From Corynebacterium coyleae (GTDB lineage Bacteria; Actinomycetota; Actinomycetes; Mycobacteriales; Mycobacteriaceae), in assembly GCF_030408635.1 (NCBI RefSeq), contig NZ_CP047198.1, positions 124,001 to 188,000 of the forward strand: a stretch of DNA of 64,000 nt. The letters run 5' to 3'. Position 1 is the stretch's first letter; every line of letters starts with the position of its first letter. Position numbers and translations under genes: made by a program. Positions 2-60,290 of the stretch are shown piece by piece. The notes under the pieces were generated by a model that was given only the letters and a program-made list of their open reading frames with translations, was not told the DNA's origin and made no database searches.

Positions 2-3000
2 GGAACTGTGAAGCCTGGCTCGATTCAAAAGGTTGAACTCGTTGATGCCAATGGAAGCTCTACGACCGTATCCGTGAATTCTGACGGTAAAATCTCTGCA
101 TCTGGCATTCCCGAGGGGGCTTACACCCTTGTAGTTACACCAGCACGCGGATACGCAAAGCCCGATGGTCGGCAGGTGAAGATTAAGGCCAATGAAGAAT
201 ACAAGCTTGGGGATATCACTCCGCAGCGCGAGAAGGGATCCATTAAAGGATCTGTAACGAATGCCCCAAAGGACTCGAATCTGAAGATCCGTGTTACCGG
301 AGTCGAAGATGCCACTCGCGATGTTGAAAAGATTGTTATTGTTGACGTAAACAACGGCGAGTACTCGGTTTCGGATTTGCCAACGGGTAAATACCGGGTC
401 GAGGTTGTGGAAGAAACTGTTCCTGGTGACCTTGCCGTGCCTGACCCGCAGAGCGCTAACGTCACGAATAATGGCATCGAAACTAAGAACTTCGAGCTGA
501 CTAAGCGAATTGGCTTCTTGACAGTTGAGCTCGATACTCCTGTACCGGTTGAAGTTAACGCGCGTCATAATGACAATGACATTTACCCTTTCGGAATGGT
601 AGACCGTGGATTTACCTGGGGAAAGGCCCCAATTGGTTCTTACACAGTAGAAGTGAAGACGCCTGAGAGGTATTCGGTCAGAGGCGAGGCCGCGACACAC
701 GTCTCGGAGAACGGCGATGGCAAGGTCAAGTTGACCGTTACCCGTGATAAGGGTTCGGTGTCTGGTTCTGTGGATCCGGAAGCTGTTGAAAAGATTGAGT
801 TGGTTGACCCGAAGACGAATGAGCGTCGTGAGGTGTCGATTGATTCCAACGGCAATGTGAAGCTGGATGAGATTCCGACGGGTGACTACACGGTTGTGGT
901 CACTCCGAAGGATAAGGATAAGTACACCGCGCCTAAGGATCAGACAGTGGAGGTGAAGAAGGACCAGGACACCAAGCTGGAGAATGTTGCGCCTTCGCGC
1001 GATAAGGGTTCGGTGTCTGGTTCTGTGGATCCGGAAGCTGTTGAAAAGATTGAGTTGGTTGACCCGAAGACGAATGAGCGTCGTGAGGTGTCGATTGATT
1101 CCAACGGCAATGTGAAGCTGGATGAGATTCCGACGGGTGACTACACGGTTGTGGTCACTCCGAAGGATAAGGATAAGTACACCGCGCCTAAGGATCAGAC
1201 AGTGGAGGTGAAGAAGGACCAGGACACCAAGCTGGAGAACATCAACCCGACCCCGAAGCCGACGACCAGCAAGCCGACGCCGACTCCGACGACTGAGAAG
1301 CCGACGCCAACTTCGACAACTGAGAAGCCGACGACCACGAAGGTGACCGTGACCACGTCGAAGCCGACGCCGACCTCGACGACTGAAAAGCCGACGACCA
1401 CGATGGTGACCACGTCCAAGCCGACGCCAACTTCGACAACTGAAAAGCCGATGACCACGAAGGTGACCACGTCGAAGCCGACGCCGACCTCGACGACTGA
1501 AAAGCCGACGCCGACCACGACCACTCCGGCCGAGACCAAGCCTTCCATTACCGGCACAGTCAAGGACAAGGACGGCAAGCCGCTGCCGCAGGACGGCGAG
1601 GGTAAGCCGAATGTCACGGTTTACGGACCTGATGGCGAGAAGGTTGCTGAGAACGTAGAGATCACGGATCCAGAGGGCAACTTCGAGATCCATGGTCCGG
1701 ACGACAAGCCGCTGCCTGACGGTAAGTACATCGTCGAGGTAGAGACCCCTGAGGGCATGAACAACCCACGTCCGAAGATCGTTGAGGTCAAGGACGGCGA
1801 GTCTGATCCGATCGAGTTCGAGGTCGACAAGTCGGAACGTGGCCGCAAGGACAAGTCTGACCGCATCGGTGAAAACACCGTCGGTGGTTGGTTGATCGAT
1901 GAGCACGGTAACCCGATCCAGGGTGCAAAGATCAAGTTCATCAAGAAGGATGTCGCTGATCCGAACACGATCTCGGTCGATCCCCGCACTGAGGAGACCA
2001 AGGGACCGGAGTACTTCGACTACGAGATTCCGCTCAGCGTTGATGGAGACGGCTTCTTCGTCACCCCGGAGATCGATTTCCAGTACTTCCCTGAAGGCGT
2101 CGTCGATTTCGACATGGAAATTGAGCTGCCGGAGGGCTGGCCGGACACCGACATCAACGGCAAGCCGCTGAACCGTAAGGTCACGGTGAAGCAGGGCGAG
2201 CGTACCGACATGGGCGAGATCCGTGTCAAGGCTCCGATCGATCAGTCCATTGAGGGCAATGTCAACGACGGCAACGGCAATGCTGTTCCGGGTACCAAGG
2301 TCGTAGTGACCGACCCGAACGGCGACTCCAAGATCATCGACGTTGATGAGAAGGGCAACTTCAAGATCGAAGATGTCACGCCTGGCGTCAACGAGATCGA
2401 GATCCTGACTCCGGGTAGCGACCGCGAGATCGACAAGATCAAGGTTCCGGTCCGCCCTGGTGATGACGTGAAGCTGCCGGAAATCCAGCTGACCAAGAAT
2501 GCTTCCCTGAAACTGGAGAAGCAGGTCTGGGGCCGCGACGCCGATAACCTGGGCCAGGTTAAGGACAAGGACGGCAATCTTGTCGACGATGTCATGACCA
2601 CCCTTCCCGGCGAAGATCTCTACTACGAGCTCTTCATCACCAACACCGGTGATACGCCGATTAAGAACATCGAGATCGATGATCCGGAACTTCAGTCGCG
2701 CAACATCGAATTGAAGATGCCGGAAGGCTGGACTGCTGAGCTCGCCCCGGGTGAAACCGAGGTGATTAAGGCCAAGATGAAGGCTCCGGAGGATGCGTTC
2801 GACTTCAACAACGTCGCTACCGCCTTCGGTGAAACCTCCACTGGTGAAAAGGTAGGTTCCGCACCGGATTCGGCGTACACCAAGTTCATCAAGGCAGAGG
2901 TGCACAAGAAGGTCAACGCCCGCTTTGCTACCAACCCGGACAAGCCTGTTCGTATGGGCGTCGGCAACGCGCTGAAGTTCACCTACGAAATCCAGAACAC

Positions 3001-4270
3001 CGGTTCTGCACCGATGGTGAACGTGGAGCTAAAGGACGCGATCTTTGAGGGCGATGCCAAGGACAAGGATGGCAACGACGTTCCAGCTGATCAGCTGAAG
3101 AAGGTCAAGGATCTTGAGATTAAGAAGCCTGAGGGCTTCAACGGCACGTTGCTGCCAGGTCAGCGTGTGATCTTCACTGCTGAGATCCCGGAAGGTCTGG
3201 CTAACAATGTCCGTCACCACAACCAAGCACAAGCAACGGGTGAACTCCCGACGCGTCCGGCTCGTGGCCGCGGCCTCGCGGGTGAACCGGACTACGGCGA
3301 TGACCCGTCATCCACGCTGATCATCTCCCCGCGCGAGAACCTCAAGGGCAACGCTCACATCATCGTTGACCAGGGTGCTCCGCTGGCTGACAACCTGCGC
3401 CTGATCGCATGGGTTGATGAGAACCAGAACCGCACGCAGGACGAGAACGAAGGCCTCGCAGGGCTGAAGGTCAAGCTGGTTCCGACCGATGGTGGTCCGT
3501 CCATCGCGGGCGAGACCAACGAAGACGGCAACGTCTACTTCGAGTCTGCACCGTGGGGTGAGTACACCTTCGAGATCGACAACCCGGGCAACCTGCGTCT
3601 GATTGATCCGCGTGATCCGGAGAAGAACTCGTCCCGTGCGGGCTCGACCCTGGAGTCGAAGCCGTTCAAGGTTCGCGGCAAGTTCTCCGAGCCGTTCGAA
3701 CTGCGTCCGGCTGCGGATGATCCGTCCCAGAAGGAAATCGTGATCGGTCTGCAGTTTGAGAAGGGCAACGGCGACATCGCTGCAGGTGGCGGTATCGGCA
3801 GGGACAACGAAATTGTTGGCGAGGACGGCAGCTCCCTGGGCAAGTGCCTGGCCACCGCATCCTCGGTATCCAACCCGGTTGCGTGGCTGGTGCCGATCGG
3901 CCTTCTCGGTGCAGTCGCCGGTGGTATCGGTGTGATGTTCGAAGACGAGCTCAACGCCGCGGCCGCACAGGCCAACGAGGCAGTGCGCAGCGTGATGCCG
4001 AACGTGAACATTGAAGTCCCGTCTGTGTTCAACCAGTTCCAGGCGCAGATCGACCAGGTCAACCGCCAGCTGTCCCAGATCAACCCGGCCGCCCCGGCTG
4101 CGGTTGCCGGTGTTGGCCTCCTGGCTGTGGCTGGTCTGATCATGGGTCTGTACTACGCCAGCTGCCAGCTCGGCTGGAACGTAGAGACCGAGGGCAGCAG
4201 CTCCAACAACAAGGCCGAGGCAACGGAGACCGCCAAGCCTGAGGAGCCAGCGGAACCGGCTGAAGCCTAA
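2..4270 (+). CDS. Large secreted repeat surface protein, 5' end outside window
   Basis: The reading frame is open from the first bases, so the true start and any signal peptide lie upstream. The visible part holds several Cna_B/carboxypeptidase-regulatory-like beta-sandwich repeats (about 2-1240), of which two are near-identical 85-residue copies. A Thr/Pro/Lys-rich stalk follows (1245-1530), then more Cna_B-like modules, two DUF11-like segments (about 2500-3240) and an SdrD_B-like domain (about 3390-3590). It ends in a module of Cys, hydrophobic helix (NPVAWLVPIGLL), Gln/Asn-rich helical linker, second hydrophobic helix, Cys (3845-4165) and a short acidic tail. There is no LPXTG-type signal, so anchoring probably uses the two hydrophobic helices. 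The same end is found in the proteins at 17988 and 52438. The first 750 bases are visibly more AT-rich than the rest, suggesting mosaic origin. Ligand unknown; a structural or adhesive surface role is inferred. Confidence 0.85.
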   Translation, partial: GTVKPGSIQKVELVDANGSSTTVSVNSDGKISASGIPEGAYTLVVTPARGYAKPDGRQVKIKANEEYKLGDITPQREKGSIKGSVTNAPKDSNLKIRVTGVEDATRDVEKIVIVDVNNGEYSVSDLPTGKYRVEVVEETVPGDLAVPDPQSANVTNNGIETKNFELTKRIGFLTVELDTPVPVEVNARHNDNDIYPFGMVDRGFTWGKAPIGSYTVEVKTPERYSVRGEAATHVSENGDGKVKLTVTRDKGSVSGSVDPEAVEKIELVDPKTNERREVSIDSNGNVKLDEIPTGDYTVVVTPKDKDKYTAPKDQTVEVKKDQDTKLENVAPSRDKGSVSGSVDPEAVEKIELVDPKTNERREVSIDSNGNVKLDEIPTGDYTVVVTPKDKDKYTAPKDQTVEVKKDQDTKLENINPTPKPTTSKPTPTPTTEKPTPTSTTEKPTTTKVTVTTSKPTPTSTTEKPTTTMVTTSKPTPTSTTEKPMTTKVTTSKPTPTSTTEKPTPTTTTPAETKPSITGTVKDKDGKPLPQDGEGKPNVTVYGPDGEKVAENVEITDPEGNFEIHGPDDKPLPDGKYIVEVETPEGMNNPRPKIVEVKDGESDPIEFEVDKSERGRKDKSDRIGENTVGGWLIDEHGNPIQGAKIKFIKKDVADPNTISVDPRTEETKGPEYFDYEIPLSVDGDGFFVTPEIDFQYFPEGVVDFDMEIELPEGWPDTDINGKPLNRKVTVKQGERTDMGEIRVKAPIDQSIEGNVNDGNGNAVPGTKVVVTDPNGDSKIIDVDEKGNFKIEDVTPGVNEIEILTPGSDREIDKIKVPVRPGDDVKLPEIQLTKNASLKLEKQVWGRDADNLGQVKDKDGNLVDDVMTTLPGEDLYYELFITNTGDTPIKNIEIDDPELQSRNIELKMPEGWTAELAPGETEVIKAKMKAPEDAFDFNNVATAFGETSTGEKVGSAPDSAYTKFIKAEVHKKVNARFATNPDKPVRMGVGNALKFTYEIQNTGSAPMVNVELKDAIFEGDAKDKDGNDVPADQLKKVKDLEIKKPEGFNGTLLPGQRVIFTAEIPEGLANNVRHHNQAQATGELPTRPARGRGLAGEPDYGDDPSSTLIISPRENLKGNAHIIVDQGAPLADNLRLIAWVDENQNRTQDENEGLAGLKVKLVPTDGGPSIAGETNEDGNVYFESAPWGEYTFEIDNPGNLRLIDPRDPEKNSSRAGSTLESKPFKVRGKFSEPFELRPAADDPSQKEIVIGLQFEKGNGDIAAGGGIGRDNEIVGEDGSSLGKCLATASSVSNPVAWLVPIGLLGAVAGGIGVMFEDELNAAAAQANEAVRSVMPNVNIEVPSVFNQFQAQIDQVNRQLSQINPAAPAAVAGVGLLAVAGLIMGLYYASCQLGWNVETEGSSSNNKAEATETAKPEEPAEPAEA
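746..1239 (+). repeat. Exact tandem duplication of an 85-residue domain
   Basis: Bases 746-984 and 1001-1239 are identical by eye with a period of 255 bp, i.e. exactly 85 codons. Only the last few codons of each unit differ. Identity at synonymous positions points to a recent duplication or ongoing homogenisation. Confidence 0.9.
1245..1530 (+). repeat. Thr/Pro/Lys-rich low-complexity stalk repeat
   Basis: The coding sequence cycles through variants of SKPTPTSTTEKP with TTKVT inserts, encoding an extended, probably rigid or O-glycosylated linker in the surface protein. Repeated tracts with in-frame length variants make copy number likely to vary between strains. Confidence 0.8.
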
Positions 4271-17987: not shown

Positions 17988-20708
17988 ATGATTTCGAAGA
18001 AGATTGCTGCGAGCACCGTTGCGCTTGCCCTCGGTGCTTCGGCTGTTGTCGCCCCGCAAGCAACCGCGCTGCCAGAAGAATTCACAAGCCCTCCGGGTCG
18101 GACCGCGAACCCACAGCAGGGCGCATGTGCTGTTGTGTTGGATCAGAACATCACCACGGTGAACCCTGGCGTGGCGCTGAAGACAACCCAAAACGGGGTC
18201 AGCGTGGGTGTTGGCCTCGACGAGGTAGACAACGCTTTCGTGCCGTGGGTGAGCGTAAGCGCTGACAGTGAGCGGGTGTTTCAATCCGGCACGGCGTTCA
18301 TCGTTGTTGAAAACGTAGGTACGCAGGATGCAACCCACTCCTACAAGCTTGAAGCTCTGAAGAAGGGCTCCGTTGAGATCAAGCGCAAGGGCAATGAGCC
18401 CGTTGAGATGCTTGATGTCAACGAGGTTGCGCTGATTGATCAGGAGTCGTTTTCGCTGAAGCGTGATCAGAAGCGCACGGCCGTTGTGAGGCTGGCTGTG
18501 GACAGCAATCAGCAGGCGCAGACGTGGGCCTGGAAGGTCAATAATCCGACGATCTTGGCGGCTGAGAAGACCCGCGTCAGCCCAACTGTGCAGATTGAAG
18601 TCGCCCCGTGGGTATTTGAGACCGATGACTGCGCGCCAATTGTTGCTTCTGAGCAGCAGTCCCAGGCGATCATCGCGGACGGCAATGAGTACGACACCGG
18701 CATCACGGTGGCCAATGCGGAGAACGACTACCAACGTTTGACCGGCAACGTTTCCATCGCTGGCAAGAAGATCGAGGGTGCCAAGGTGCGTGTCGACGAC
18801 ACCGGCAAGGTCTACGTCACCCTCCCCAAGGGCGCGACCGGTTCGGTTGATGACGACAAGGCGGCGAAGGTTGATGTGGAGATCATCGCGAACCCTCGCG
18901 AGGCCACCAAGGACGAGGATTTCGACGCCTACAAGAACCCACAGGTACTGCGCGTTGCAACCGAGGACGGCGTTGTTGATCAGGACACGCCGAAGTTCAC
19001 CGGTTCCGTCCCCGTTGCCAAGTTTGCTCCCGCCTACAACACGCCGAACACGGTCAAGCCGGGTAGCTCCGTTGATGTCGCGTTGAAGGCACAGCCTGGC
19101 GACGTCCGCGGCATCGCCGTCGACGCCACCTACACCGTCGTCGACGCACCGGAAGGGTGGACCGCCGAACCAGCCAAGGACGGCACGCTGAAGGTCACCG
19201 CCCCGAAGGGTGCGAAGCACGGCGATACCGCCACGTTCACCGTGGACGTCACCTACGCCGACGGTTCCAAGGACACCATCGACACGGTGGTGACGGTGCG
19301 CGAGACCGATGCAAACCTGAACACCCCGGGCTACGGCGAGACCTACGGCAAGGTCGGGGTGGAGGTCAGCCTCGAGCAGAACAACAAGAACCTGCCGGAG
19401 GGCTCCACCTTCACCATCACCCCGGGCCAGGACTTGGGCGATTGGGTGCCGAAGGTTGATCCGACAACCGGCACCATCACCGTCACCATCCCGGGCTCCG
19501 CAAAGCCTGGCGATGTGAAGACGATCCTGGTCGACGTGACCTACCCGGACGGTTCCGTGGATAAGAACGTTCCGGCGAAGGTCATCGTCCACGGTGCCCC
19601 GGAGTACCCGGAGGTAGAGAAGACCCCGGGCCAGAACGCCACCTTGAAGCCGAAGAAGGACGACGTGCCGGGTGGTTCCACCTACGAGATCACCCCGGGC
19701 CAGGACCTTGAGGAGTGGAACCCGCAGATCGACGCCAAGACTGGCGACATCACGGTCACCGTGCCGAAGACCGCGAAGGATGGCGACGAGAAAATCATCG
19801 ACGTCACCGTCACCTACCCGAGCGGCAAGACCGACGTCGTGCCGGCAAAGGTCACGGTGAAGGTCCCGGATACCCAGCCGGGCAACGGCACCGACAACAC
19901 CACCCCAGGCGACAACAACAACACCACCACCGTGATCGTTGTCTACCCGGGCCAGAAGACGGAGGTTCCGCCGCCGAACGGTTCGGGCGAGTGGAAGATC
20001 CCGGACAACCCGAAGATCCCGGAGGGTTGGAAGGTCGAGGTCAACCCAAGCACGGGCAACCTAACCATCACCCCGCCAGCCGACGTGAAGCCGGGCACCA
20101 ACATCACCATCCCGGTGGAAGTGAAGACACCGGACGGCAAGACCACGATCGTCGAGATCCCGGTCAAGACCGACAACGGTTCCATCCCGAACGACCCAGG
20201 CCAGAAGCAGCCGCAGAACCTGGTGTCTGACCAGGGCTCCTCGGAGAACTTGAAGAAGTGCTTCGACAGCATGTCGTCCGAGAACAACCCACTGCTGTGG
20301 CTGGTTCCGCTCGGCCTGCTGATCGCCATCGGTGCACCGCTGGCCGGCCCGCTCGGCGCCGAGCTGGGCAAGGCAGCAGCGAACGTGTCGGAGAAGATGA
20401 ACATCCCGAACCCGCTCGAGCAGTTCGGCCTCGGCGGCGAGACCAACCGTCGCCCGCAGCCGGAGTGGATGCGTCAGATCCAGGTTGAGGCTGACCGTCT
20501 GCAGCAGCAGTTCGGCCCGGAGGTCACCCAGGCAGCAGCCATCGGTTTGTCCCTGGCTGGTCTGGCAGCAGGCATTGGCATCCTCGCCGCCCTGTGCAAG
20601 GACGGCGAACTGCCGGAGTGGGCCCAGAGCTCCAAGTCAGACGCGAAGGGTTCCTCCAACAAGGGCGAAGGCAAGAGCGACGGTAAGGAGACCGAGGAAA
20701 CCGCCTAA
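17988..20708 (+). CDS. Secreted Rib/alpha-like surface protein with two-helix Cys-flanked anchor
   Basis: A 906-residue protein with ATG at 17988 and an AAGGAG site. A signal peptide ends near ATA. The first 350 residues have no repeat character. From about 19040 several Rib/YPDG-like beta domains follow (each with TPG..., GW or DW...PK, VTVP/TIPG, VTYPDGS), then an Asn/Thr/Gly linker. It ends in the Cys-bounded module (20259-20596): NNPLLWLVPLGLL helix, polar linker with EWMRQIQVEADRLQQQF, second helix, Cys, then a Lys/Glu/Ser-rich tail. No sortase signal exists. Rib domains form extended stalks on Gram-positive surfaces, so a stalk-like surface protein is inferred; ligand unknown. It has its own terminator. 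Confidence 0.87.
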   Translation: MISKKIAASTVALALGASAVVAPQATALPEEFTSPPGRTANPQQGACAVVLDQNITTVNPGVALKTTQNGVSVGVGLDEVDNAFVPWVSVSADSERVFQSGTAFIVVENVGTQDATHSYKLEALKKGSVEIKRKGNEPVEMLDVNEVALIDQESFSLKRDQKRTAVVRLAVDSNQQAQTWAWKVNNPTILAAEKTRVSPTVQIEVAPWVFETDDCAPIVASEQQSQAIIADGNEYDTGITVANAENDYQRLTGNVSIAGKKIEGAKVRVDDTGKVYVTLPKGATGSVDDDKAAKVDVEIIANPREATKDEDFDAYKNPQVLRVATEDGVVDQDTPKFTGSVPVAKFAPAYNTPNTVKPGSSVDVALKAQPGDVRGIAVDATYTVVDAPEGWTAEPAKDGTLKVTAPKGAKHGDTATFTVDVTYADGSKDTIDTVVTVRETDANLNTPGYGETYGKVGVEVSLEQNNKNLPEGSTFTITPGQDLGDWVPKVDPTTGTITVTIPGSAKPGDVKTILVDVTYPDGSVDKNVPAKVIVHGAPEYPEVEKTPGQNATLKPKKDDVPGGSTYEITPGQDLEEWNPQIDAKTGDITVTVPKTAKDGDEKIIDVTVTYPSGKTDVVPAKVTVKVPDTQPGNGTDNTTPGDNNNTTTVIVVYPGQKTEVPPPNGSGEWKIPDNPKIPEGWKVEVNPSTGNLTITPPADVKPGTNITIPVEVKTPDGKTTIVEIPVKTDNGSIPNDPGQKQPQNLVSDQGSSENLKKCFDSMSSENNPLLWLVPLGLLIAIGAPLAGPLGAELGKAAANVSEKMNIPNPLEQFGLGGETNRRPQPEWMRQIQVEADRLQQQFGPEVTQAAAIGLSLAGLAAGIGILAALCKDGELPEWAQSSKSDAKGSSNKGEGKSDGKETEETA

Positions 20709-20823: not shown

Positions 20824-21381
20824 ATGCTGCGGGAAAACGAAGTCATTATCCGGCAAACCAAAATCTTCGGCCGCAACGAGTTCGCGATCGAAGCACCCAC
20901 CGGACAACCCCTTGGCACGGCACGGCAAACGAAGCTCAACATGAAAGACGTGCTGAGCCGGGCCTCGCGCCAAGTCGACGTGTTCGACGCAGGCGGCACG
21001 CACCTTATCAGCATCGAAGACCCGATCGACCTCATCCGCGACAGCTACACCGTGCGTCTGGTCACTCCCGCGATGGAGCTGGCGCGGCTGACATCGCGGT
21101 TCAAGCTCATGGGCTCAAAATTCGACCTCGACATCGCAGGGTTTCCCGAGGTGCAAGTCGAAGGCAAGGTGTTCAACCGCAACTACACGCTCACATCGCA
21201 GGGCCGCCCGATCGCGCACGTGGTCGCGGAATACAAAGGCTTCGGGCGCGAACTGACCGGCAAGTCGGACTACCGGGTGCAGTTCGAGCCGGAGCTGAGC
21301 GAACGCCAGCACGCTGCGATCCTCGGTGTGGTCATCGCGATCGACATGTGGCGGGTCAAGCGCCGCCAACAATCCAGCTAG
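20824..21381 (+). CDS. LURP-one-related / scramblase-like domain protein
   Basis: A 185-residue soluble protein with the pattern of the LURP-one/Tubby-like beta-barrel family. It opens with a strand (ENEVIIRQTKIFGRNEFAIE), has an internal module with RLTSRFKLMGSKFDLDIAG and EVQVEGKVFNRNYTLTSQG, and ends in a hydrophobic helix (HAAILGVVIAIDMWRVKRR) characteristic of the fold. No enzymatic residues are apparent. Bacterial members have no defined function; membrane-lipid interaction is only a guess from the scramblase relationship. Leaderless start; convergent with ferritin across a shared terminator. Confidence 0.75.
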   Translation: MLRENEVIIRQTKIFGRNEFAIEAPTGQPLGTARQTKLNMKDVLSRASRQVDVFDAGGTHLISIEDPIDLIRDSYTVRLVTPAMELARLTSRFKLMGSKFDLDIAGFPEVQVEGKVFNRNYTLTSQGRPIAHVVAEYKGFGRELTGKSDYRVQFEPELSERQHAAILGVVIAIDMWRVKRRQQSS

Positions 21382-50515: not shown

Positions 50516-52582
50516 ATGGCCGAATCATCTCGGCGTTTTCGTAAGTCCACGTCTACTAGCATCGCGGCAACATCTGCGATTGCGCTCGCGCTTGGTGGCC
50601 TGAGTGTCGTCGGCCCGGGCCCGCTGGCGCCGTACGCCGCGGCTGCCACATTGTCCGGCGGAATCCGCGACAAGTCCGGCGCGGTAGAGCAGGACGCCCA
50701 GAAGGCCTCCGACCTGCCGGCTGGTTCGTGTGTTGTTTCAGAGACCGACACCGCTAACCACAGCCAGGCTGGTTTCAGCTGGACCACCCGGGAGCCGGGT
50801 ACAGATAGCCCCGACAAGACCCTGTGGGGCTTGAGCGTCTCTTTTGATAACTCGAAGGACCGCACGTTCGCCGATTGGTCCTTCACCAATGGCGGGAAGC
50901 TTGGCGGCGTCTTGGGTACCGGTGAGGTGCCTTCCATGGATGCCGACCAGACCTTCCTTGGCAAGAGCGTCACGCACAAGGCTGACGAAAGCATCGAAAT
51001 TACTGGTTCTCGCGACCAACGAAACCTAAATCTCTACGCAGATCTCACTGCTGAGGAGGTCAAGCAGTTCGCTTCGGCCACTGCCGAGAATCCCGTGCGC
51101 TACGCCTGGCAGAGCAACTACAAGAAGGACAATCCTTCGGGCCTGAAAGCCACGGAAGGTGACAGCTCTGCATTCAGCGCTACTGTAAACCCGTGGCCGA
51201 GCGAGAACATCGAATGTAACCCGATTACGGTGTCGTGGGAGTCTTTCGAGAAGCACGTCATCGTGCCCGGTGACGAAACCAAGGTCGGTACCGTCAACAT
51301 TCCTGCTGTGCAGAACGACGGCAAGGACGATTCCATGTCCCGCATGGTCGTGGAAGCTTACGACGGCAACGGCAAGTTCATCGGCACCACCGACCCGGAA
51401 GCCTCCGGTGGTACGCAGAACTTGCGTATCGACGAAAAGACCGGTGAGATCTTCTTCACCTGGCCGGAGTACCGTGGTACTGACCTGGCTACCGACAAGA
51501 ACGTCAACTTCTCCGTTTTGGCGAAGCCGCGTACTGTTGACCAACTCCAGGCCGCTGCTGACCACAACAACGAATGGGGCGAGAATAAGACCTTCGACAG
51601 CTCCAACTCGCTGGACCGCTACAGCAAGGCGAACGTCATCGACTCCAAGGAGTTCTCGCTGGATGACACCGAGGACCACGATCCGAAGTACGACAAGACG
51701 GACGCGTCGATCATCTCCGGCGTCGATAGTGCTACCGGCCCGCTGGCTACCGAACCGCAGAAGGTCGTCTTCAAGCAGGTCCCGGATCTGATCGCCAATC
51801 TGGCAAAGAAGAAGGGCGACGGTGGATTCGAGGCCAAGGTCGAGATTGACGAGAAGTATGTCTACGAGGGCTGGACCGTCGACATTGACGAGGATTACAA
51901 CGTCACCGTCACTGCTCCGGAAAATCCGAAGCCGGGTAGCTTTGCGCAGCCCAAAATCACTGTCGAGTACTCGAACGGCTCCACAGACGTACTCCAACTC
52001 CTCGTGGTTGTCGACCCGAACAACACCCAGGTCACAGACCTCGTGCGCCCTGGCCTATCCAAGGGCAAGCTGAACGAGGAAATTACCGCCCAGGTGGGCA
52101 CCAAGTCCATCATGAAGGGCCACAAGCCGGTCCACCCGGCCAAGTTTGAGATCGATGAGTCCACTGTCCCAGATGGCTGGACTGTCACCGTCGACGACAC
52201 CGGCAAGGTCACCGCGAAGGCCGATGACTCTGTTGCACCGGGAACCGTCATTACCCCGAAGGTCAAAGCGACCTATCCGGACCAGACCACGGATGAGATC
52301 GAGGTCCAGTTCCAGGCCATCGTGGACATCAAGATCCCGACGTACGACACCAAGACCGGTCAGCCGAACGCAAGCGTCAGCCTCACTCCCGAGATCCCGG
52401 AGCGTGGTCTGAGCGGCAACACGACCGATGAAGCCCCGACGCGCTATATACCTTCGAGGATGGCACCAACCAGACCCGCCTTACGAGTAAGGATGGTAAG
52501 ACCTGGACCGTCAACGTTGATGAGAACACTGGTGAAATCACGACCACGATTCCGAAGGGTGCGCAGGAAGGCGACATCCTGA
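50516..52582 (+). CDS. Giant G5/Rib surface protein, N-terminal fragment before frameshift
   Basis: Starts at the ATG at 50516 (GAGGAG upstream) with a long signal sequence ending near AYAAA. About 390 residues of unassigned beta-rich sequence follow, then Rib/alpha-like domains (GWTVDIDEDYNVTVTAPENPKPGS; GWTVTVDDTGKVTAKADDSVAPGT). True coding stops at the CCCC run 52434-52437. After it the frame reads 48 residues of Arg/Pro-rich nonsense to a stop at 52582, while the Rib sequence continues in another frame. One extra C would restore a single protein of about 2,125 residues. Confidence 0.85.
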   Translation: MAESSRRFRKSTSTSIAATSAIALALGGLSVVGPGPLAPYAAAATLSGGIRDKSGAVEQDAQKASDLPAGSCVVSETDTANHSQAGFSWTTREPGTDSPDKTLWGLSVSFDNSKDRTFADWSFTNGGKLGGVLGTGEVPSMDADQTFLGKSVTHKADESIEITGSRDQRNLNLYADLTAEEVKQFASATAENPVRYAWQSNYKKDNPSGLKATEGDSSAFSATVNPWPSENIECNPITVSWESFEKHVIVPGDETKVGTVNIPAVQNDGKDDSMSRMVVEAYDGNGKFIGTTDPEASGGTQNLRIDEKTGEIFFTWPEYRGTDLATDKNVNFSVLAKPRTVDQLQAAADHNNEWGENKTFDSSNSLDRYSKANVIDSKEFSLDDTEDHDPKYDKTDASIISGVDSATGPLATEPQKVVFKQVPDLIANLAKKKGDGGFEAKVEIDEKYVYEGWTVDIDEDYNVTVTAPENPKPGSFAQPKITVEYSNGSTDVLQLLVVVDPNNTQVTDLVRPGLSKGKLNEEITAQVGTKSIMKGHKPVHPAKFEIDESTVPDGWTVTVDDTGKVTAKADDSVAPGTVITPKVKATYPDQTTDEIEVQFQAIVDIKIPTYDTKTGQPNASVSLTPEIPERGLSGNTTDEAPTRYIPSRMAPTRPALRVRMVRPGPSTLMRTLVKSRPRFRRVRRKATS

Positions 52583-55500
52583 ACGTTCCGGTCCAGGCTC
52601 ACTACAGCGATGAAGGCAAGCAAAAGCCGCAGACGGTTGTAGGCACTGTCGTCGTCATCAAGGGCGATCTGAAGGCATCGTACGATGTCCAGGTCACAGG
52701 TCCAGGCCAAGCAACTGAGCACCAGGTGGAGGACACGCCAGACGGCTCCACGTTCTCCTTCGGCCAGAAGAATGGCAAGCCGGTCCTCACCCAGGAAGTA
52801 GATGGTTGGAATTACACCATCGACCCGAAAACCGGTGTGGTCACAGCTACCCCGCCGACGGATGCCAAGCCGGGAGAAAGGAAGACTGTCTCCGTTACGG
52901 TAAACGCACCGGGTGGTTTGACCACTCAGGCGCCTGTCACCACCGTGGTGAAGCTGACCAATGCGTGGGAGGCAGAGCCAACATACCCTGTTGAAACAGT
53001 CTTCCCGGGAGATACCGCAGAGTTGGCGGTTAACCTTGACAAGCCAGATGACGTTAACGTGGCGAAGGATACCCCCTACAAGCTGGGCAAGGTTCCGACT
53101 GGTTGGACCGTCAGCATTGACAGCAACGGCAAAATCATCGCAACGGCCCCTGAAGACGCGGAACAGGGGACTCAGGTTGAGATTCCCGTCACCGTGACCT
53201 ACGAGGATGGTTCCACGGATCAGGTGAAGGCTGTCATCAACGTTGTTGACGTGCCGACACGCGAAGTCCCGTACAAGGTCGTATATAAGCAAGACGACTC
53301 TATTCCGGCCGGCGAGTACGAGGTCGAAACCAAGGGCAAGCCGGGCAAGGAGAAGCAGAACAGAGACGGCACTTGGGAGCGAACCGAAGAGCCGGTTGAT
53401 GAGGTCGTCCTTGTCGGCACCAAGCCGGTCGTAGCAACAGGCACTCAAACGTGGATTGCGCCAACTCCTTACGACACTGTGCTTCGCCCAAATCCTGATC
53501 TCAAGCCGGGTGAAACCAAGATTGTTCGGGAAGGTACGCCTGGCAAGACCCAGTACACGGTGGACTTCTCGGCCAAGGATGGGCAGACCGAGACCACACC
53601 GACGAAGACTGAGCTGGAGCCGCCGGTAGACCAGATCATTGAGTACGGTCCGCAACTCAACGATGACGAGTTGGTGGTGACGACCAAGAAGCCGGTTGTC
53701 TTTGAAACCAAGATCATTTTTGATGACACCCTCGTCGCCGGTCGGACCATCACTGATGAGGAAGGCGAAACCGGCGAAATCACTGTGACCTCGACGCAGA
53801 AGCTTGTCGACGGTCGCCCTTCCGGAGATCCTGTAGTCACCGAGGAAGTGACAAAGGAAAAGAAGGACGCCGTTGTTCGCGTCGGCACGATGACCGAAGG
53901 CGAGATCACTAACAAGTACGAAGTTGATGTTCCGTACACGGTTGAGATCGTCTACGACGATTCCATTCCTGCTGGCGAGACCAAGGTCAAGCAAGAGGGT
54001 GTGCCGGGTAAGAAAACCACGACGGTCACGCAGAAGATCCGCAACTCCCAGCCTGATGGCGACCCGGAGATGACCTTCGACGAGACGAAGGCACCGGTCA
54101 CAAAGATCATCCTCGTGGGCACTAAGCAAGCGAAGTCGAAGTCCGATGTGACTTGGACTGAGCCGATTCCGTACAGCACGGAACTGCGCCCGGCTGATGA
54201 CCTTGCGCCGGGTGAAACCCGCGTGGTCCAGGAAGGTGAAGACGGCGAGGTTACCTACACCGCGAAGTTCACCGCTGCTGGCGGCGAGGCGGGGGTCAAT
54301 GAGGGAGAGGTGCGTAAGCCCGCGAAGCCGCGCATTGTGGAATACGGTTTGCAGACCGATTCTGACGACTACGTAGTTGAGACCACCCGTCACATTCCGT
54401 TTGAAACCAAGGTTATTTTCGATGACACCTTGCAAGAAGGCGAGCAGGTCATTGATCAGGGCGTCGTTGGGCAGGAAGCGGTCACCGCAACCCAAAAGAT
54501 TGTCAACGGCCGCCCCACCGGCGATCCCGTGATCACGACCCGCACCATTCAGGAACCGAAGAATGCGGTAATTCGTATCGGTGTGAAGCCGACGCCGGAT
54601 ATCGTCGACAAGGTCAAGACTCAGATTCCTTTCGAGACTGAGGTCATCTATGACCCAGAGATGCCAGCAGGCGAGTCCGAAACTGTTACTGAAGGCAAGT
54701 CTGGCGAGAAGGAAATCACCACCACTCGTAAGGTGACAGATGGTGTTCCTGGTGATCCAGTGGTTACCGAGAATGTGCTTTCCCAACCGACGAAGCAGGT
54801 GATCAAGGTTGGTACCAAGCCGTCGAGTGCTAGCGATAAGGTGACCTGGACTGCTCAGGTTCCGTTTGGTGTTGAGACCCGTCCGAACCCGGAGTTGAAG
54901 CCGGGTGAGATCAAGGTCGCCCAGAAGGGCGTCCCGGGTGAGAAGACCTACACCGCTGACTTCACCGCCAAGGGCGACCAGGCTTCCGTGAAGCCTGAAG
55001 AGAAGCAGACCAAGGATCCGGTCAACGAGATCATCGAGTACGGTCCGGCCATCAAGGACGGCGATCTGACCACCAAGGTGAAGAAGCCAGTTCCGTTCGA
55101 GACCGAGGTCATCCTCGACGACACCCTTGAGTCTGGTAAGCAGGTTGTCGATCAGCAGGGCGAGCTTGGTGAGGACGTTGAGACCTCCACCCAGAAGATC
55201 GTCGACGGCAAGCCGTCCGGGGATCCAAAGGTGACCACTGACCGCACCAAGGAGCCGGTCAAGCAGATCATCCGTGTTGGCACCAAGATCCCTGATCCGA
55301 AGAAGGCTGAGACCTACGTTGAGGTTCCATTCGAGACCGAGGTCGAGTTTGATGAGAACTTGGAACCGGGCAAGGAAGTTGAAGTTTCCCCGGGTAAGCC
55401 GGGCAAGATTCGCGTGACCTCCGAAGACGGCAAGACGGTCGTCGAAGAGATCGAGCCGGCACAGCCGCGCAAGATCCGTGTTGGTGCCAAGCCGGGTGAA

Positions 55501-56895
55501 ACGCCGGAGTGGAAGAACAACATTCCGTTCAAGGTAAAGACTGTAGAGAGGCCGGATCTGCCGGCTGGCACCCACCGTGTTGTTCAGAAGGGCGTTCCGG
55601 GTCTGGCTCGTCACGTTGGTGACGAGGTCGAGGTCATCGAGCAGCCGAAGGATGAGATCATCGAGGTCGGCACTGGTATCAGTGACGGCTACGTCAAGGA
55701 GATCGAAGTCACTGACGTCCCGTTCAAGACCCAAATCATCGAAGATGACACCCTCGAGGCTGGCCAGTACAAGGTTGAACAACAGGGCAGGACTGGCTAC
55801 GACAAGACCACAAAGGTCTGGAAGTATGTCGACGGGGCTAAGCAGGGCGAAGCGGTGCCGACGTATGAAAAGATCTCCGATTCGCAGGACATGATCATCC
55901 GCGTTGGTACCAAGAAGCCGACGACGGACCCGAACACGCCGACGCCGACCGAAGACCTCGAAATTGGCGTCCACTACACCACCAAGATCGTCTACGATCC
56001 GAGCCTCGAGCCAGGTGAGGAAGTCGAAGATGTTGCTGGTGAGGACGGCAAGTACGTCATCAAGGTCGTCGACGGCAAGGCTGCCGCCGAGGTGGTGAAG
56101 GAGCCGGTCGAACGCGTCGTGCGCGTTGGCACCAAGCCGGCCGACGGCGTCCGTTGGACCGAGGAAACCGCCTACGATTTCGAGATCCGAGAGGATCCGA
56201 ACATGGAAGCTGGCAAGCACGAGATCGTGCAGCCAGGTGTTCCGGGTGAGCGCATCCACAAGGAAGACGGCACCGTCGAGGAGAAGGCTCCGCAGAAGCT
56301 GATCGTCAAGGTTGGCACGAAGCAGCCGGCTGACCCGGACAAGCCGACCGATCCGACCACCCCGGCGGATCCGGCTCAGAGCTCGTCCGATAAGGCGAAG
56401 CGCTGCGTGGCCAACGCGTTTGCGAAGAACAGCCCGATCCTGTGGCTGCTGCCAATCGGCGTCCTCGCTGGCATTGGCTACGGCGTGAACGAGGCGTTCG
56501 GTCCGCAGATCCAGAAGGCATCTGCAGAGCTCAACGCTCGTTTCCAGGAGTCCATGCCGAAGCATGACTGGGGTCACGGCCACCAGGGCCGCCAGTGGGA
56601 GCAGCCTGAGTGGGCTCGCGAACTGCAAGTGAAGGCAGACGCCATCAACCGTCAGTTCGCAGGCTACGGCGAGCAGCTCCAGCCGCTGGGTATTGCGCTT
56701 GGTGTCATTGCTGCAGCCAGCCTCACCGGTGTGCTGATTGCACAGGCCTGCCGCGAAGAGGGCTTCGACAACGGCATGACCGTGCTCGGCTCGACGGAGC
56801 GTGTGACGTCCTCGGGCGAGACGGGCTCGTCGTCAAGCAAGGGCTCATCGGAGAACGCAGGTTCGTCGGAGAACGCAGGCTCCTCCAGTAAGTAG
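52438..56895 (+). CDS. Giant G5/Rib surface protein, C-terminal fragment after frameshift
   Basis: The frame reads DALYTFEDGTN directly after the C-run, continuing the Rib domain of the upstream fragment. The first in-frame start codon is a GTG at 52726. Two further Rib-type domains are followed by about 14 G5 domains (53260-56330), each around 55-80 residues and most ending VGT or EYG. The first nine are organised as three A-B-C triplets. G5 domains build stiff, adhesive stalks in other Gram-positives. The end is the shared Cys-helix-linker-helix-Cys module (56404-56751) and a Ser/Gly/Glu tail. No sortase signal. Whether the natural gene is intact cannot be decided here. Confidence 0.85.
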   Translation, partial: DALYTFEDGTNQTRLTSKDGKTWTVNVDENTGEITTTIPKGAQEGDILNVPVQAHYSDEGKQKPQTVVGTVVVIKGDLKASYDVQVTGPGQATEHQVEDTPDGSTFSFGQKNGKPVLTQEVDGWNYTIDPKTGVVTATPPTDAKPGERKTVSVTVNAPGGLTTQAPVTTVVKLTNAWEAEPTYPVETVFPGDTAELAVNLDKPDDVNVAKDTPYKLGKVPTGWTVSIDSNGKIIATAPEDAEQGTQVEIPVTVTYEDGSTDQVKAVINVVDVPTREVPYKVVYKQDDSIPAGEYEVETKGKPGKEKQNRDGTWERTEEPVDEVVLVGTKPVVATGTQTWIAPTPYDTVLRPNPDLKPGETKIVREGTPGKTQYTVDFSAKDGQTETTPTKTELEPPVDQIIEYGPQLNDDELVVTTKKPVVFETKIIFDDTLVAGRTITDEEGETGEITVTSTQKLVDGRPSGDPVVTEEVTKEKKDAVVRVGTMTEGEITNKYEVDVPYTVEIVYDDSIPAGETKVKQEGVPGKKTTTVTQKIRNSQPDGDPEMTFDETKAPVTKIILVGTKQAKSKSDVTWTEPIPYSTELRPADDLAPGETRVVQEGEDGEVTYTAKFTAAGGEAGVNEGEVRKPAKPRIVEYGLQTDSDDYVVETTRHIPFETKVIFDDTLQEGEQVIDQGVVGQEAVTATQKIVNGRPTGDPVITTRTIQEPKNAVIRIGVKPTPDIVDKVKTQIPFETEVIYDPEMPAGESETVTEGKSGEKEITTTRKVTDGVPGDPVVTENVLSQPTKQVIKVGTKPSSASDKVTWTAQVPFGVETRPNPELKPGEIKVAQKGVPGEKTYTADFTAKGDQASVKPEEKQTKDPVNEIIEYGPAIKDGDLTTKVKKPVPFETEVILDDTLESGKQVVDQQGELGEDVETSTQKIVDGKPSGDPKVTTDRTKEPVKQIIRVGTKIPDPKKAETYVEVPFETEVEFDENLEPGKEVEVSPGKPGKIRVTSEDGKTVVEEIEPAQPRKIRVGAKPGETPEWKNNIPFKVKTVERPDLPAGTHRVVQKGVPGLARHVGDEVEVIEQPKDEIIEVGTGISDGYVKEIEVTDVPFKTQIIEDDTLEAGQYKVEQQGRTGYDKTTKVWKYVDGAKQGEAVPTYEKISDSQDMIIRVGTKKPTTDPNTPTPTEDLEIGVHYTTKIVYDPSLEPGEEVEDVAGEDGKYVIKVVDGKAAAEVVKEPVERVVRVGTKPADGVRWTEETAYDFEIREDPNMEAGKHEIVQPGVPGERIHKEDGTVEEKAPQKLIVKVGTKQPADPDKPTDPTTPADPAQSSSDKAKRCVANAFAKNSPILWLLPIGVLAGIGYGVNEAFGPQIQKASAELNARFQESMPKHDWGHGHQGRQWEQPEWARELQVKADAINRQFAGYGEQLQPLGIALGVIAAASLTGVLIAQACREEGFDNGMTVLGSTERVTSSGETGSSSSKGSSENAGSSENAGSSSK
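53260..56330 (+). repeat. G5 domain array with three-domain super-repeat
   Basis: About 14 G5 units. Units ending VGT, EYG and VGT alternate as A, B and C types in three successive triplets of roughly 215-235 residues (53260-55285); later units are single. C units all carry FDDTL-like and GRPSGDP/GRPTGDP sequences. Confidence 0.75.
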
Positions 56896-56947: not shown

Positions 56948-57065
56948 TCTGCCGTTACCTAAAATTCACCTGAGTGTTCCTTATTAGAAATTTGCTGTGT
57001 TTAGGGTGCGTATCGGTTCAAAAACCGTTTCATATTCTTCGGCTTCTCGTTATAAGGAACCCAAC

Positions 57066-60000
57066 ATGCGTTTCTCGCTAAAAGCAGCTACCGCGGTAGT
57101 CAGCGCTTCTGCGTTGGCTATTGCGAACCTGCCTACCTCCCTCGCACAGTCGGCGGAGCAGTCCTTCAACGGCAAGGACACCTGCATTTCCATCGATTCC
57201 AACGGCAACATCGTCGCCCCGCAGCCGGGTGACTGCACACAGTTCGGCAAGGGCGGCCAGGGCAACACCGACGCCCAGGCACGCAACGTCATCTTCATCC
57301 TGGGCGACGGCATGGGCCACCAGGAGATCACTGCTGCTCGTAACTACCTCAAGGGCGCTAACGGCCGCTTCGAGGGCCTCGACGAGCTGACTGCGGCAGG
57401 TGCTTACACGACCTTCGCTATCGGTGAGGATGGCAAGCGTCAGTACGTCACCGACTCCGCCGCGTCCGCAACGGGCTGGTCCACCGGCACGAAGACCTAC
57501 AACGGCGCGTTGTCCATCGATATCACCGGCAAGCCGCACGAGAACCTGTTGGAGATGGCGAAGAACGCCGGTATGCGCACCGGTAACGTCTCCACCGCGG
57601 AGATCCAGGATGCGACCCCGGGCGCGATGCACTCGCACATCTCCAAACGCGGCTACTACGCGCCGTCCGGCGACGCGAAGCCGGTCAAGGGTGCTGAAGC
57701 TCGCGAAAACGGCGGTCTTGGCTCCATCTCCGAGCAGATCATCGACACCCGCGCCGACGTCACCCTGGGCGGCGGCCGCAAGTACTTCGACGCCGAGGTT
57801 CAGCAGGGTGGCGAGAACCGCAACCCGTTCCTGACCGACAAGAACGACGGCGGCGCCGACTGGGAGGCCGGCAAGTCCGTCCGCGAAAACGCGATTGCCA
57901 AGGGCTACCAGGTTGTCGACGACAAGCAGGGCCTCGAGGGCATCACCGTCGCGAACCAGGACCAGCCGGTGCTCGGCCTGTTCCACGACAAGAACATGAC
58001 CCGCAAGTTCGAGCAGACCGTGCCGGTGAAGTCCGACGGCACCACCGAGCCGGAGGTCTGCAAGGAAGCTGATCGCGGCGACGAGCCGTCCGCAGCCGAG
58101 ATGACCAAGAAGGCTATCGAGCTTCTCGACGACAAGAGCGCCGACAAGGGCTTCTTCCTCCAGGTCGAGTCCGCCTCCATCGATAAGGCGGACCACGCAG
58201 CCGACGCCTGCGGCATGATCGGCGAGACCCAGCAAATCGACGAGGTTATTAAGGAAGCCCTCGACTTTGCCAAGGCGGACGGTGAGACCATGATCGTTGT
58301 CACCGCCGACCACGCGCACACCGCGGAAATCATCCCGGACGGCCGCCCGTCAGTGTCCGCCGTAACTCGCCTGAAGACGCCGAAGGACGGCACCACCATG
58401 TCCATCGGCTTCGGCACCCAGCCGTGGCTGGATGAGAACGGCAACCCGGTCTTTGACAAGAAGGCCAACGGCGACCCGTTCGACACCCCGAACTTCTCCA
58501 TGATGCATACCGGCACCCAGGTGCGCATCGCAGGCTTCGGCCCGGGCTCCGAGAACGTCAACGGCCAGCTCGACCAAACCGACGCCTTCTACGTCATGGC
58601 GAATGCGCTCGGCCTCAACGGTGGCACCGAGGGTGGCCAGGAGCCGTGGAAGATCAACAAGAGCAACAAGGTCATCTCGCTGGCCAACCGCTCCAAGGCG
58701 AAGCCGGGCGACCAGCTCTGCTACCTCGTCTCCGCAGGCGAGGCACCGAAGGTCGGCGACTGTGCCCAGTTCGGCACCGAGGGCCAGGGCATCGACAACG
58801 CCAAGGCGAAGAACGTCGTCCTGCTCATCGGCGACGGCACCGGCGACTCCGAGATCACCGCAGCGCGTAACTACCTCAAGGGCTCCGCGGGCCGCTTCGA
58901 GGGTCTCGACGACCTGGACTACACCGGCTACCTGACTACGTTCTCCCTGGACAAGGAGACCGGCCTGCCGAACTACGTCGGTGATTCCGCTGCGACCGGC
59001 ACCGCCTGGAACTCCGGTGTGAAGACCTACAACGGCGCGGTCGGCGTGGACAACGCCGGCAAGCCGGTTGCAACCCTCGGCGAGATCGCAAAGGCCAAGG
59101 GCCTGAAGATCGGCAACGTCACCACCGCCGAAATCCAGGACGCTACTCCGGCAGCCTTCGCTGCACACGCAATCAAGCGTTCCTACTACGCACCGTCTGG
59201 CGACAAGAAGGTCGCAGAGGGCGAGCAGCTGCGTGAAAACGGCGGTCTTGGCTCCATCTCCGAGCAGATCGTCGACCTGCGCGCAGACGTCACCCTCGGT
59301 GGCGGCCGCAGCTACTTCAACACTGAGGTCGTCCAGGGCGGCCAGTGGGGCGAAAACGGCAACGTTTGGACCGCCGGCAAGTCTGTTCTGGAAAACGCGA
59401 AGGACAATGGCTACCAGGTTGTCACTAACGCCTCCGAGCTCGACGCGATCGCAGAGGCAAACGCCGACAAGCCGGTCCTCGGTCTGTTCTCCGAGGGCAA
59501 CATGCCGCGCGCGCTGAACCAGTCCATTCCGACCACCGATGGCGGTGACCTCGAGCCGGCCACCTGCGTTGCTAACCCGGAGTTCACCGCTGAGACTCCG
59601 CGACTGGCAGCCATGACCTCCAAGGCGCTCGAGCTGCTGCAGAACGACAAGGGCTTCGTGCTCCAGGTCGAGTCCGCCTCGCCGGACAAGGCCGACCACC
59701 AGGCTGACGCCTGTGGCCTGATCGGCGAGGTCGGCCAGCTCGACGAGGCCGTCCAGGCTGTTCAGGATTGGGTGGAGAAGACCGGTGAGGAGACCCTGAT
59801 CGTCGCCACCGCCGACCACGCTCACACCGCACAGATCACCTACGAGAACCAGAACACCGCTGGTCGCGTCACTCAGCTGACCACGGTTGAAGGCTCCACC
59901 ATGGCCGTCAACTTCGCCACCTCCAAGACCAACGAGGACGAGGATGCGCTCGGCGGCCAGCAGCACACCGGTGCGCAGCTGCGTGTCGCAGCCTCCGGCC

Positions 60001-60290
60001 CGGGTGCCGCGAACCTCACCGGCCAGATCGACCAGACCGACCTCTTCTTTGCCAGCCTGAACGCGCTGGGCATCGATCCGGTCAACCACAATCTGACCTT
60101 TGAGAACAAGATGCAGCCGGTGGAGGAGACCACCGAGGAGAACACCGCCGCCGGCTCCTCCGTCGACGTCGACTCCCCGGCGCTCATCGCCACTCTGGCG
60201 ATTGCAGGCATCGCGGGCCTCATCTCCCTGATTGCCCTGCTGGCACCGTTTGCTGTCGACCGCGCCCTCGGCCCGATCGCTAAGTTCTAG
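57066..60290 (+). CDS. Tandem double alkaline phosphatase with membrane anchor
   Basis: A 1074-residue secreted protein made of two complete PhoA-type alkaline phosphatase domains in one chain. Domain 1 (about 35-530) has DGMGHQEIT, nucleophile S131 in TDSAASATGW, ASIDKADHAADACG, TADHAHTA and MHTGTQ. Domain 2 (about 555-1020) has DGTGDSEIT, S641 in GDSAATGTAW, ASPDKADHQADACG, TADHAHTA and QHTGAQ. Both keep all metal and nucleophile residues and the phosphate-binding arginine. E. coli PhoA works as a dimer, so this may be a covalent pseudo-dimer. A signal peptide opens the chain (start ATG 57066, AAGGA upstream) and a C-terminal hydrophobic helix (LIATLAIAGIAGLISLIALL) holds it at the surface. 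Likely role: phosphate release from organic phosphates. Confidence 0.92.
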   Translation: MRFSLKAATAVVSASALAIANLPTSLAQSAEQSFNGKDTCISIDSNGNIVAPQPGDCTQFGKGGQGNTDAQARNVIFILGDGMGHQEITAARNYLKGANGRFEGLDELTAAGAYTTFAIGEDGKRQYVTDSAASATGWSTGTKTYNGALSIDITGKPHENLLEMAKNAGMRTGNVSTAEIQDATPGAMHSHISKRGYYAPSGDAKPVKGAEARENGGLGSISEQIIDTRADVTLGGGRKYFDAEVQQGGENRNPFLTDKNDGGADWEAGKSVRENAIAKGYQVVDDKQGLEGITVANQDQPVLGLFHDKNMTRKFEQTVPVKSDGTTEPEVCKEADRGDEPSAAEMTKKAIELLDDKSADKGFFLQVESASIDKADHAADACGMIGETQQIDEVIKEALDFAKADGETMIVVTADHAHTAEIIPDGRPSVSAVTRLKTPKDGTTMSIGFGTQPWLDENGNPVFDKKANGDPFDTPNFSMMHTGTQVRIAGFGPGSENVNGQLDQTDAFYVMANALGLNGGTEGGQEPWKINKSNKVISLANRSKAKPGDQLCYLVSAGEAPKVGDCAQFGTEGQGIDNAKAKNVVLLIGDGTGDSEITAARNYLKGSAGRFEGLDDLDYTGYLTTFSLDKETGLPNYVGDSAATGTAWNSGVKTYNGAVGVDNAGKPVATLGEIAKAKGLKIGNVTTAEIQDATPAAFAAHAIKRSYYAPSGDKKVAEGEQLRENGGLGSISEQIVDLRADVTLGGGRSYFNTEVVQGGQWGENGNVWTAGKSVLENAKDNGYQVVTNASELDAIAEANADKPVLGLFSEGNMPRALNQSIPTTDGGDLEPATCVANPEFTAETPRLAAMTSKALELLQNDKGFVLQVESASPDKADHQADACGLIGEVGQLDEAVQAVQDWVEKTGEETLIVATADHAHTAQITYENQNTAGRVTQLTTVEGSTMAVNFATSKTNEDEDALGGQQHTGAQLRVAASGPGAANLTGQIDQTDLFFASLNALGIDPVNHNLTFENKMQPVEETTEENTAAGSSVDVDSPALIATLAIAGIAGLISLIALLAPFAVDRALGPIAKF

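Follow-up and report, generated by a model that had tools for sequence, protein, structure and literature searches.

In a 64,000-nucleotide stretch of the Corynebacterium coyleae genome (contig NZ_CP047198.1, positions 124,001 to 188,000; hereafter the window), three large surface proteins built on different stalks end in the same C-terminal module, which represents a real, unnamed domain family. Its layout is a cysteine (Cys1), a hydrophobic helix, a Gln/Asn-rich linker, a second hydrophobic helix, a second cysteine (Cys2) and a tail. On the explanation that we favour, with slightly better than even confidence, the module would be the C-terminal membrane anchor of large secreted Corynebacterium surface proteins, fibrillar adhesins among them, forming a disulfide-clasped hairpin in the mycolate outer membrane (mycomembrane) with O-mycoloylated Gly-Ser-Ser (GSS) tags beside it. 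An original prediction, made from the DNA letters, had proposed the shared hairpin and placed all three modules within one base of the limits given in Table 1; the identity of the membrane, the disulfide and the lipidation are what we infer here from sequence comparisons.

An alignment of the three modules has 20 invariant columns, and a profile built from them (alignment A1) recovered ten copies from the organism's own 2.5-Mb genome (E 1.7e-81 to 2.6e-4), five of which lie in one gene run at 2.17–2.19 Mb. With ten copies recovered by profile, the resemblance of the three modules is not due to chance; the original prediction was likewise correct in describing different stalks, which are of the carboxypeptidase-regulatory/SpaA/SdrD-B, long Rib and G5 types, respectively. 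An eleventh match (E 0.18) was discarded, as the module was absent when the sequence was read. A wider profile (A2), comprising 33 of the 34 extracted modules with the near-copy L006 left out, added own-genome copies at 82 and 119 kb (L190 and L191), both of which on reading have the same cysteine–hairpin–cysteine layout and stand outside the counts of 66 and 68 used below; a further alignment, A3, holds nine of the same modules. The genome encodes at least 12 copies.

Across the genus, the module is found at E ≤ 0.001 in 82 of 242 Corynebacterium genomes, the richest of which has 15 matches. In this and the wider searches, the best 10 or 16 first-look candidates were scored per genome, and no other sampled genus gave a credible match. 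With the A1 profile, a survey of 61 genomes from 22 genera gave a match only in Corynebacterium. With the A2 profile, matches at E ≤ 0.01 came from 4 of 397 genomes of the order, of which three belong to Corynebacterium and one is false, and 3 of 246 genomes of the phylum matched, one from Corynebacterium and two false on reading. The weak matches outside the genus (L070, L099 and L100) were rejected because none contains the module when read; we take them to be an MmpL-like transporter, an ABC-transporter-like protein and a short frame, the two transporter names resting on recognition rather than on a family search. A scan of named genomes with one pattern for the window-type subfamily returned 17 loci, all in Corynebacterium records such as those of C. 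bouchesdurhonense and C. gottingense.

No Pfam model covers the module, with two sub-threshold matches touching a copy, and NCBIfam gave no match over the module region of the three window proteins. PDB matches of the profile scored low and fell for the most part in coiled coils or other helical stretches; they were rejected. One module query against each of the plasmid and phage collections found no match, on which ground we reject a phage or plasmid origin. A literature search, with subscription papers mostly outside its reach, found neither the module nor a GSS tag described.

The cysteine pair is complete in 66 of 68 distinct module frames, the two exceptions being degenerate fragments (L076 and the second frame of L069) that are excluded from the counts that follow, and all 66 two-cysteine copies are C-terminal. 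The span from Cys1 to Cys2 is 85–134 residues (median 106.5), within which a 19-residue Kyte–Doolittle value of at least 1.6 is reached by the first helix in 59 copies and by the second in 64. Gln and Asn make up 24.6% of the linker, against 7.4% of the stalks, and with a mean of 4.8 Lys/Arg to 6.7 Asp/Glu the linker has no excess of positive charge and gives no positive-inside signal. A signal-peptide-like hydrophobic start opens 26 of the 32 frames uncut by a locus edge; among the six without one, the frame of protein 3 of the window represents the 3' portion of a split gene, and the same seems to hold for four more. The longest module frames reach 3252 residues. In proteins 1 and 3 of the window, the two cysteines of the module are the only ones in a long open frame, an observation in favour of a disulfide between them. 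Additional cysteines occur in many other members, and a disulfide between the two near-invariant residues is likely.

Two further observations concern the carriers of the module in the same genome. At 2.168–2.200 Mb (L103 and L104), five neighbouring giant module proteins have a common signal peptide core, RRRGTS[IV]AAAALS[FL]ALVAP, possibly a specialised export signal. Near 82 kb (L190, 657–1298), a minimal relative of 214 residues comprises a signal-peptide-like start, one long Rib and the module, and stops two residues past Cys2.

The original prediction described the tail as short and charged; it is instead Gly/Ser-rich with repeated GSS, and runs for 10–150 residues (median 35.5). Counted per 1000 residues, GSS reaches 30.3 over the 25 residues that precede Cys1 and 52.0 over the tail, whereas the stalks have 0.44 and the hairpin interior 0.42. 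The tails contain 135 GSS, against 17.1 on shuffling each flank (maximum 28 in 1000 shuffles), and the stretches before Cys1 contain 50, against 4.1 (maximum 10), so that the motif is 8–12 times commoner than in shuffled flanks. When one copy was kept per cluster of less than 50% identity (16 clusters), the corresponding counts were 32 against 5.5 (maximum 14 of 2000) and 19 against 1.9 (maximum 9); relatedness therefore does not explain the excess. The enrichment is specific to the order of residues (GSS 185, SSG 25, SGS 12, GSG 3) and to serine, as GST occurs 7 times (expected 6.6) and GSS 185 times (expected 16.0). In 65 of the 66 copies at least one flank contains an SS pair, the exception being L114.

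These tags recall the sites at which mycomembrane proteins are O-mycoloylated; statements credited here to published sources, given by their PMC numbers, refer to the accessible parts of those papers. PorH is mycoloylated at S56, within a terminal NFSS, and ProtX at S37, which is followed by the last residue, Ser38 (PMC5310785); in PorB the sites are Ser-7 and Ser-98 (PMC11066868). PDB chain 2vqg has LSS at 6–8 and FSS at 97–99, the latter by the published C-terminal NFSS, and provided that the PorB numbering follows 2vqg, all four checked sites (PorH, ProtX and the two of PorB) would be the first Ser of an SS pair. A site survey places mapped sites in Ser/Gly/Ala surroundings, where they cluster, with Thr used about one ninth as often as Ser (PMC11066868). 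Among PorB-family proteins, SS follows the second cysteine in all 20 read by eye (20 fetched of 39 matches listed; 11 of the 20 form alignment A4). The C. coyleae genome itself encodes a mycoloyltransferase-like protein whose best PDB match is Cmt1 (4h18, 4.4e-41) and which has GSS clusters beside a hydrophobic segment and at its C-terminus; four of six mycoloyltransferase-like proteins read in this genome have SS or GSS near the front. A long enzyme that we label PS1-like from its length and repeats rather than from a search was compared in 15 of 24 genomes: SS lies shortly downstream of its signal peptide in all 9 Pks13-bearing genomes, each of which also has the module, and in 2 of 6 Pks13-lacking ones, and GSS in 4 of 9 and 0 of 6, respectively, in small samples of related genomes.

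The closest likeness in layout is with PorB of C. glutamicum, an O-mycoloylated mycomembrane protein in which one disulfide ties helices whose Ser-rich ends carry SS (PMC5310785). The module, with a putative disulfide, has the same arrangement of a cysteine pair around helices with SS-bearing ends, a likeness of layout and not of descent; unlike it, PorB/PorC (PF11565) proteins are about 100 residues long, with no hydrophobic hairpin and no stalk. Homology to PorB was rejected, as hhalign of the module against the PorB profile gave a probability of 0.1 and no PorB chain is among the 47 PDB matches of the module profile at E ≤ 10. None of the three window proteins matches PF11565, and the genome has a separate PorB-like protein.

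We picture the anchor as working in the manner of PorB, with disulfide-tied helices and lipidated Ser-rich ends, but carrying a long stalk instead of a porin. After export, a disulfide between the two cysteines would clasp the helical hairpin at its open end, and the hairpin would insert into the mycolate outer membrane, leaving stalk and tail both on the outer side. A mycoloyltransferase of the Cmt1/MytC type would then O-mycoloylate serines of the GSS tags next to the clasp, and the added lipid anchors would fix the protein in the mycolate outer membrane. By simple geometry rather than by a structural model, fully helical arms of ~50 residues would measure 7–8 nm, which is comparable with the quoted mycomembrane thicknesses of 5 and 7 nm (PMC12337289, PMC12021427). 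The placement in the outer membrane is better argued through the GSS and SS tags, which the module appears to have in common with known mycomembrane proteins. That this is a dual protein-and-lipid mycomembrane anchor in which GSS acts as a genuine sequence signal for O-mycoloylation is a tentative proposal, which we rate somewhat short of even.

Distribution within the genus bears on the same question. When the 242 genomes were searched for Pks13 (NF040607), 12 complete ones gave weak matches only (E 1.8e-9 to 1.9e-14) or none (G064, G065, G132, G136, G138, G001, G166, G013, G175, G223, G230 and G034), as did two incomplete ones (G218 and G260). The module is found in none of the 12 complete Pks13-lacking genomes, even at E ≤ 10, and in 81 of the other 228. 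Two of the 12 have Rib-type frames, one of the four with a Rib match below the cut-off, and the four readable ends are LAVTG, LANTG or LASTG followed by a hydrophobic stretch; as LAxTG is listed as a sortase variant (PMC8286594), similar stalks appear to be tied to the wall in those two genomes. Sortase signals of the LPxTG/LAxTG kind are thus C-terminal anchors on the same stalk types (Rib, G5) in relatives, but they attach the protein covalently to the wall and have a single helix plus a basic tail. In the module proteins, an L[PA]xT[GA] motif is absent from the last 150 residues of the 66 copies, bar one LAVTA inside a hydrophobic helix. The module is therefore no sortase signal, as had been predicted.

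A number of findings weigh against a lipidated hairpin in the mycomembrane. The module is also missing from 147 of the 228 Pks13-bearing genomes, and a gyrB tree of 30 chosen genomes (12 Pks13-lacking, 12 with the module and 6 with neither) places the 12 Pks13-lacking genomes in only three lineages; with a base rate near 35%, absence by chance would be expected about one time in four, and we do not take this absence as strong proof. G260, which is 77% complete, has the module and no Pks13 hit, the missing hit being put down to incompleteness. Pks13-lacking genomes keep 3–7 esterase-family (mycoloyltransferase-type) matches each. Nor do anchors split cleanly by mycolate content: C. aurimucosum makes mycolates, the window's own genome has two sortases, and the sortase ends compared were those of Rib-type frames in Pks13-lacking genomes. 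In C. aurimucosum, LANTG is the ending of a G5 protein (PMC2830990), on which ground we reject such a split; these points slightly lower our confidence in the explanation that we favour. As to the tags, they are not universal, the flanks of L114 being without SS and the minimal L190 protein almost tailless, and two of the six own-genome mycoloyltransferase-like proteins read have no SS near the front. The comparison of SS sites covers the four named above, out of a wider set that includes PorA S15 and sites mapped in PS1, Cmt1 and other proteins, and the site survey reports no strict consensus in its accessible part (PMC11066868). L187, one of the four frames with sortase-type ends from Pks13-lacking genomes, has a GST/GSS-rich linker, so that Gly-Ser-rich stretches occur without mycolates too. 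Finally, the hydrophobicity of the helices would suffice to lodge them in the inner membrane.

The linker of L187, together with the commonness of Ser/Gly-rich spacers in general, would suit a mycomembrane hairpin whose GSS motifs stay unlipidated and serve as a flexible spacer or receive a different modification, for example O-glycosylation or the kind of wall linkage that PorH and ProtX are reported to have. We consider this rather unlikely, as a spacer has no reason to favour GSS over SGS, SSG or GST to the extent counted above, and the preference for Ser over Thr matches mapped O-mycoloylation sites (PMC11066868).

The hydrophobicity of the helices, typical of plasma-membrane spans, underlies the chief rival explanation, in which the helices lie in the plasma membrane with the linker in the cytoplasm, the stalk crosses the wall and the outer membrane, and GSS motifs are wall spacers. 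The longest frames could suffice to cross the envelope in this way. The linker fits such a topology poorly, having no positive-inside signal and 25% Gln/Asn, and an inner-membrane hairpin explains neither the order of the GSS motif nor the SS ends common to known mycomembrane proteins; we judge it unlikely.

A placement in the mycomembrane is described for PS2 and PS2-like proteins, secreted surface proteins that, like those described here, end in a C-terminal hydrophobic anchor; PS2, in the accessible parts of the sources, is likewise reported only from Corynebacterium (PMC12337289, PMC12021427). PS2 differs in having one helix, a hexameric coiled coil and a terminal Phe, against the two helices, two cysteines, polar linker and Ser/Gly tail of the module. 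The module has two hydrophobic segments rather than a single terminal helix, and Phe is the last residue in 0 of 66 copies. The last residue is Lys in 33 of the 66, against 9.6% Lys in the tails, and PS2-like anchors end in F, P or K (PMC12021427). Whether O-mycoloylation helps to target PS2 is left open in the accessible part of PMC12021427. PS2 hexamers are held in the mycomembrane by a helical coiled coil (PMC12337289), and PorB is thought to form a channel by oligomerising (PMC5310785). These precedents, along with the amphipathic Gln/Asn-rich linker, would allow the hairpin to oligomerise into an alpha-helical mycomembrane channel that passes its own passenger in the manner of an autotransporter and then anchors it. 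We regard this as highly improbable.

Returning to the original proposal of a hairpin anchor in the mycolate membrane, it is partly supported. In its favour are the distribution, with profile matches confined to one mycolate-forming genus and no spread to mycolate-free members of the sampled genomes, the C-terminal position of all 66 copies counted, the signal-peptide-like starts of 26 of 32 uncut frames, the hydrophobic helices, the lack of any named anchor domain corresponding to the module, and the GSS/SS tags. Its weak point is the restriction to a single genus, through which distribution cannot separate a need for mycolates from an origin within Corynebacterium.

Coordinates of the three proteins and their modules are collected in Table 1. 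The open frame of protein 1 starts at ~123.2 kb of the contig, before the window, and measures 1693 residues in full (locus L102). Protein 3 does not start at 52726; its gene is split in this assembly, with the signal peptide in an upstream open reading frame (ORF) that overlaps the downstream ORF in another frame. Both frames match a single protein in relatives L107 and L111, and an overlapping upstream frame is found at four other module genes (L109, L105, L112 and L114); the split frames may reflect either phase variation or sequencing error in repeats. The Pfam search assigned protein 3 two long Rib matches besides the 14 G5 matches. Fibrillar adhesins likewise combine an adhesive domain, stalk repeats and a C-terminal anchor (PMC8286594), a layout that is found in protein 3 only, across its two parts; among the domains matched, proteins 1 and 2 have stalk-type domains only. 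The module is not among the anchors named for fibrillar adhesins in the accessible part of that source.

Table 1. Surface proteins of the window, their hairpin modules and GSS tags (window coordinates)
Feature	Position	Strand	Remarks
Surface protein 1	2..4270	+	5' end outside window; CarboxypepD_reg/SpaA/SdrD_B stalk domains
GSS tag before Cys1, protein 1	3827..3835	+	
Hairpin module, protein 1, Cys1–Cys2	3845..4165	+	107 aa
Hydrophobic helices, protein 1 module	3872–3940, 4097–4159	+	19-residue Kyte–Doolittle values 2.01 and 2.12
GSS tag in tail, protein 1	4193..4201	+	
Surface protein 2	17988..20708	+	906 aa; signal-peptide-like start, long Rib (YPDG) stalk
GSS tag before Cys1, protein 2	20235..20243	+	
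Hairpin module, protein 2, Cys1–Cys2	20259..20597	+	113 aa
Hydrophobic helices, protein 2 module	20286–20348, 20541–20594	+	
GSS tag in tail, protein 2	20649..20657	+	
Surface protein 3, first part	50516..52582	+	signal-peptide-like start, putative adhesin domain pAdhesive_10, RibLong; frame breaks near end
Surface protein 3, second part	52432..56895	+	RibLong, 14 G5 matches, anchor
Hairpin module, protein 3, Cys1–Cys2	56404..56751	+	116 aa; SSS, not GSS, precedes Cys1
Hydrophobic helices, protein 3 module	56431–56487, 56686–56742	+	
Four GSS tags in tail, protein 3	56824..56886	+	

Two neighbouring genes deserve mention. Directly downstream of protein 3, positions 56997–60290 encode a tandem alkaline phosphatase whose single C-terminal hydrophobic helix terminates in AKF and is immediately preceded by a GSS, an end that resembles the single-helix anchors of PS2-like proteins (PMC12021427). 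Just downstream of protein 2, a small protein (20824–21378) has a scramblase-family match (PF03803, 1.9e-9).

PS2 and the small porins are the worked examples found of how proteins are retained at the outer surface of the mycolate membrane, a question still largely open. The module would be a new variant of mycomembrane anchoring and not a new principle, unless GSS is a true lipidation signal. If the explanation we favour is true, mycomembrane surface proteins would become predictable from sequence in about one third of Corynebacterium genomes, an anchor for surface display would be offered, and part of a gap would be filled, as nearly half of the fibrillar-adhesin-like proteins surveyed lack any recognised anchor (PMC8286594). 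The GSS result makes it testable whether protein O-mycoloylation follows a sequence signal.

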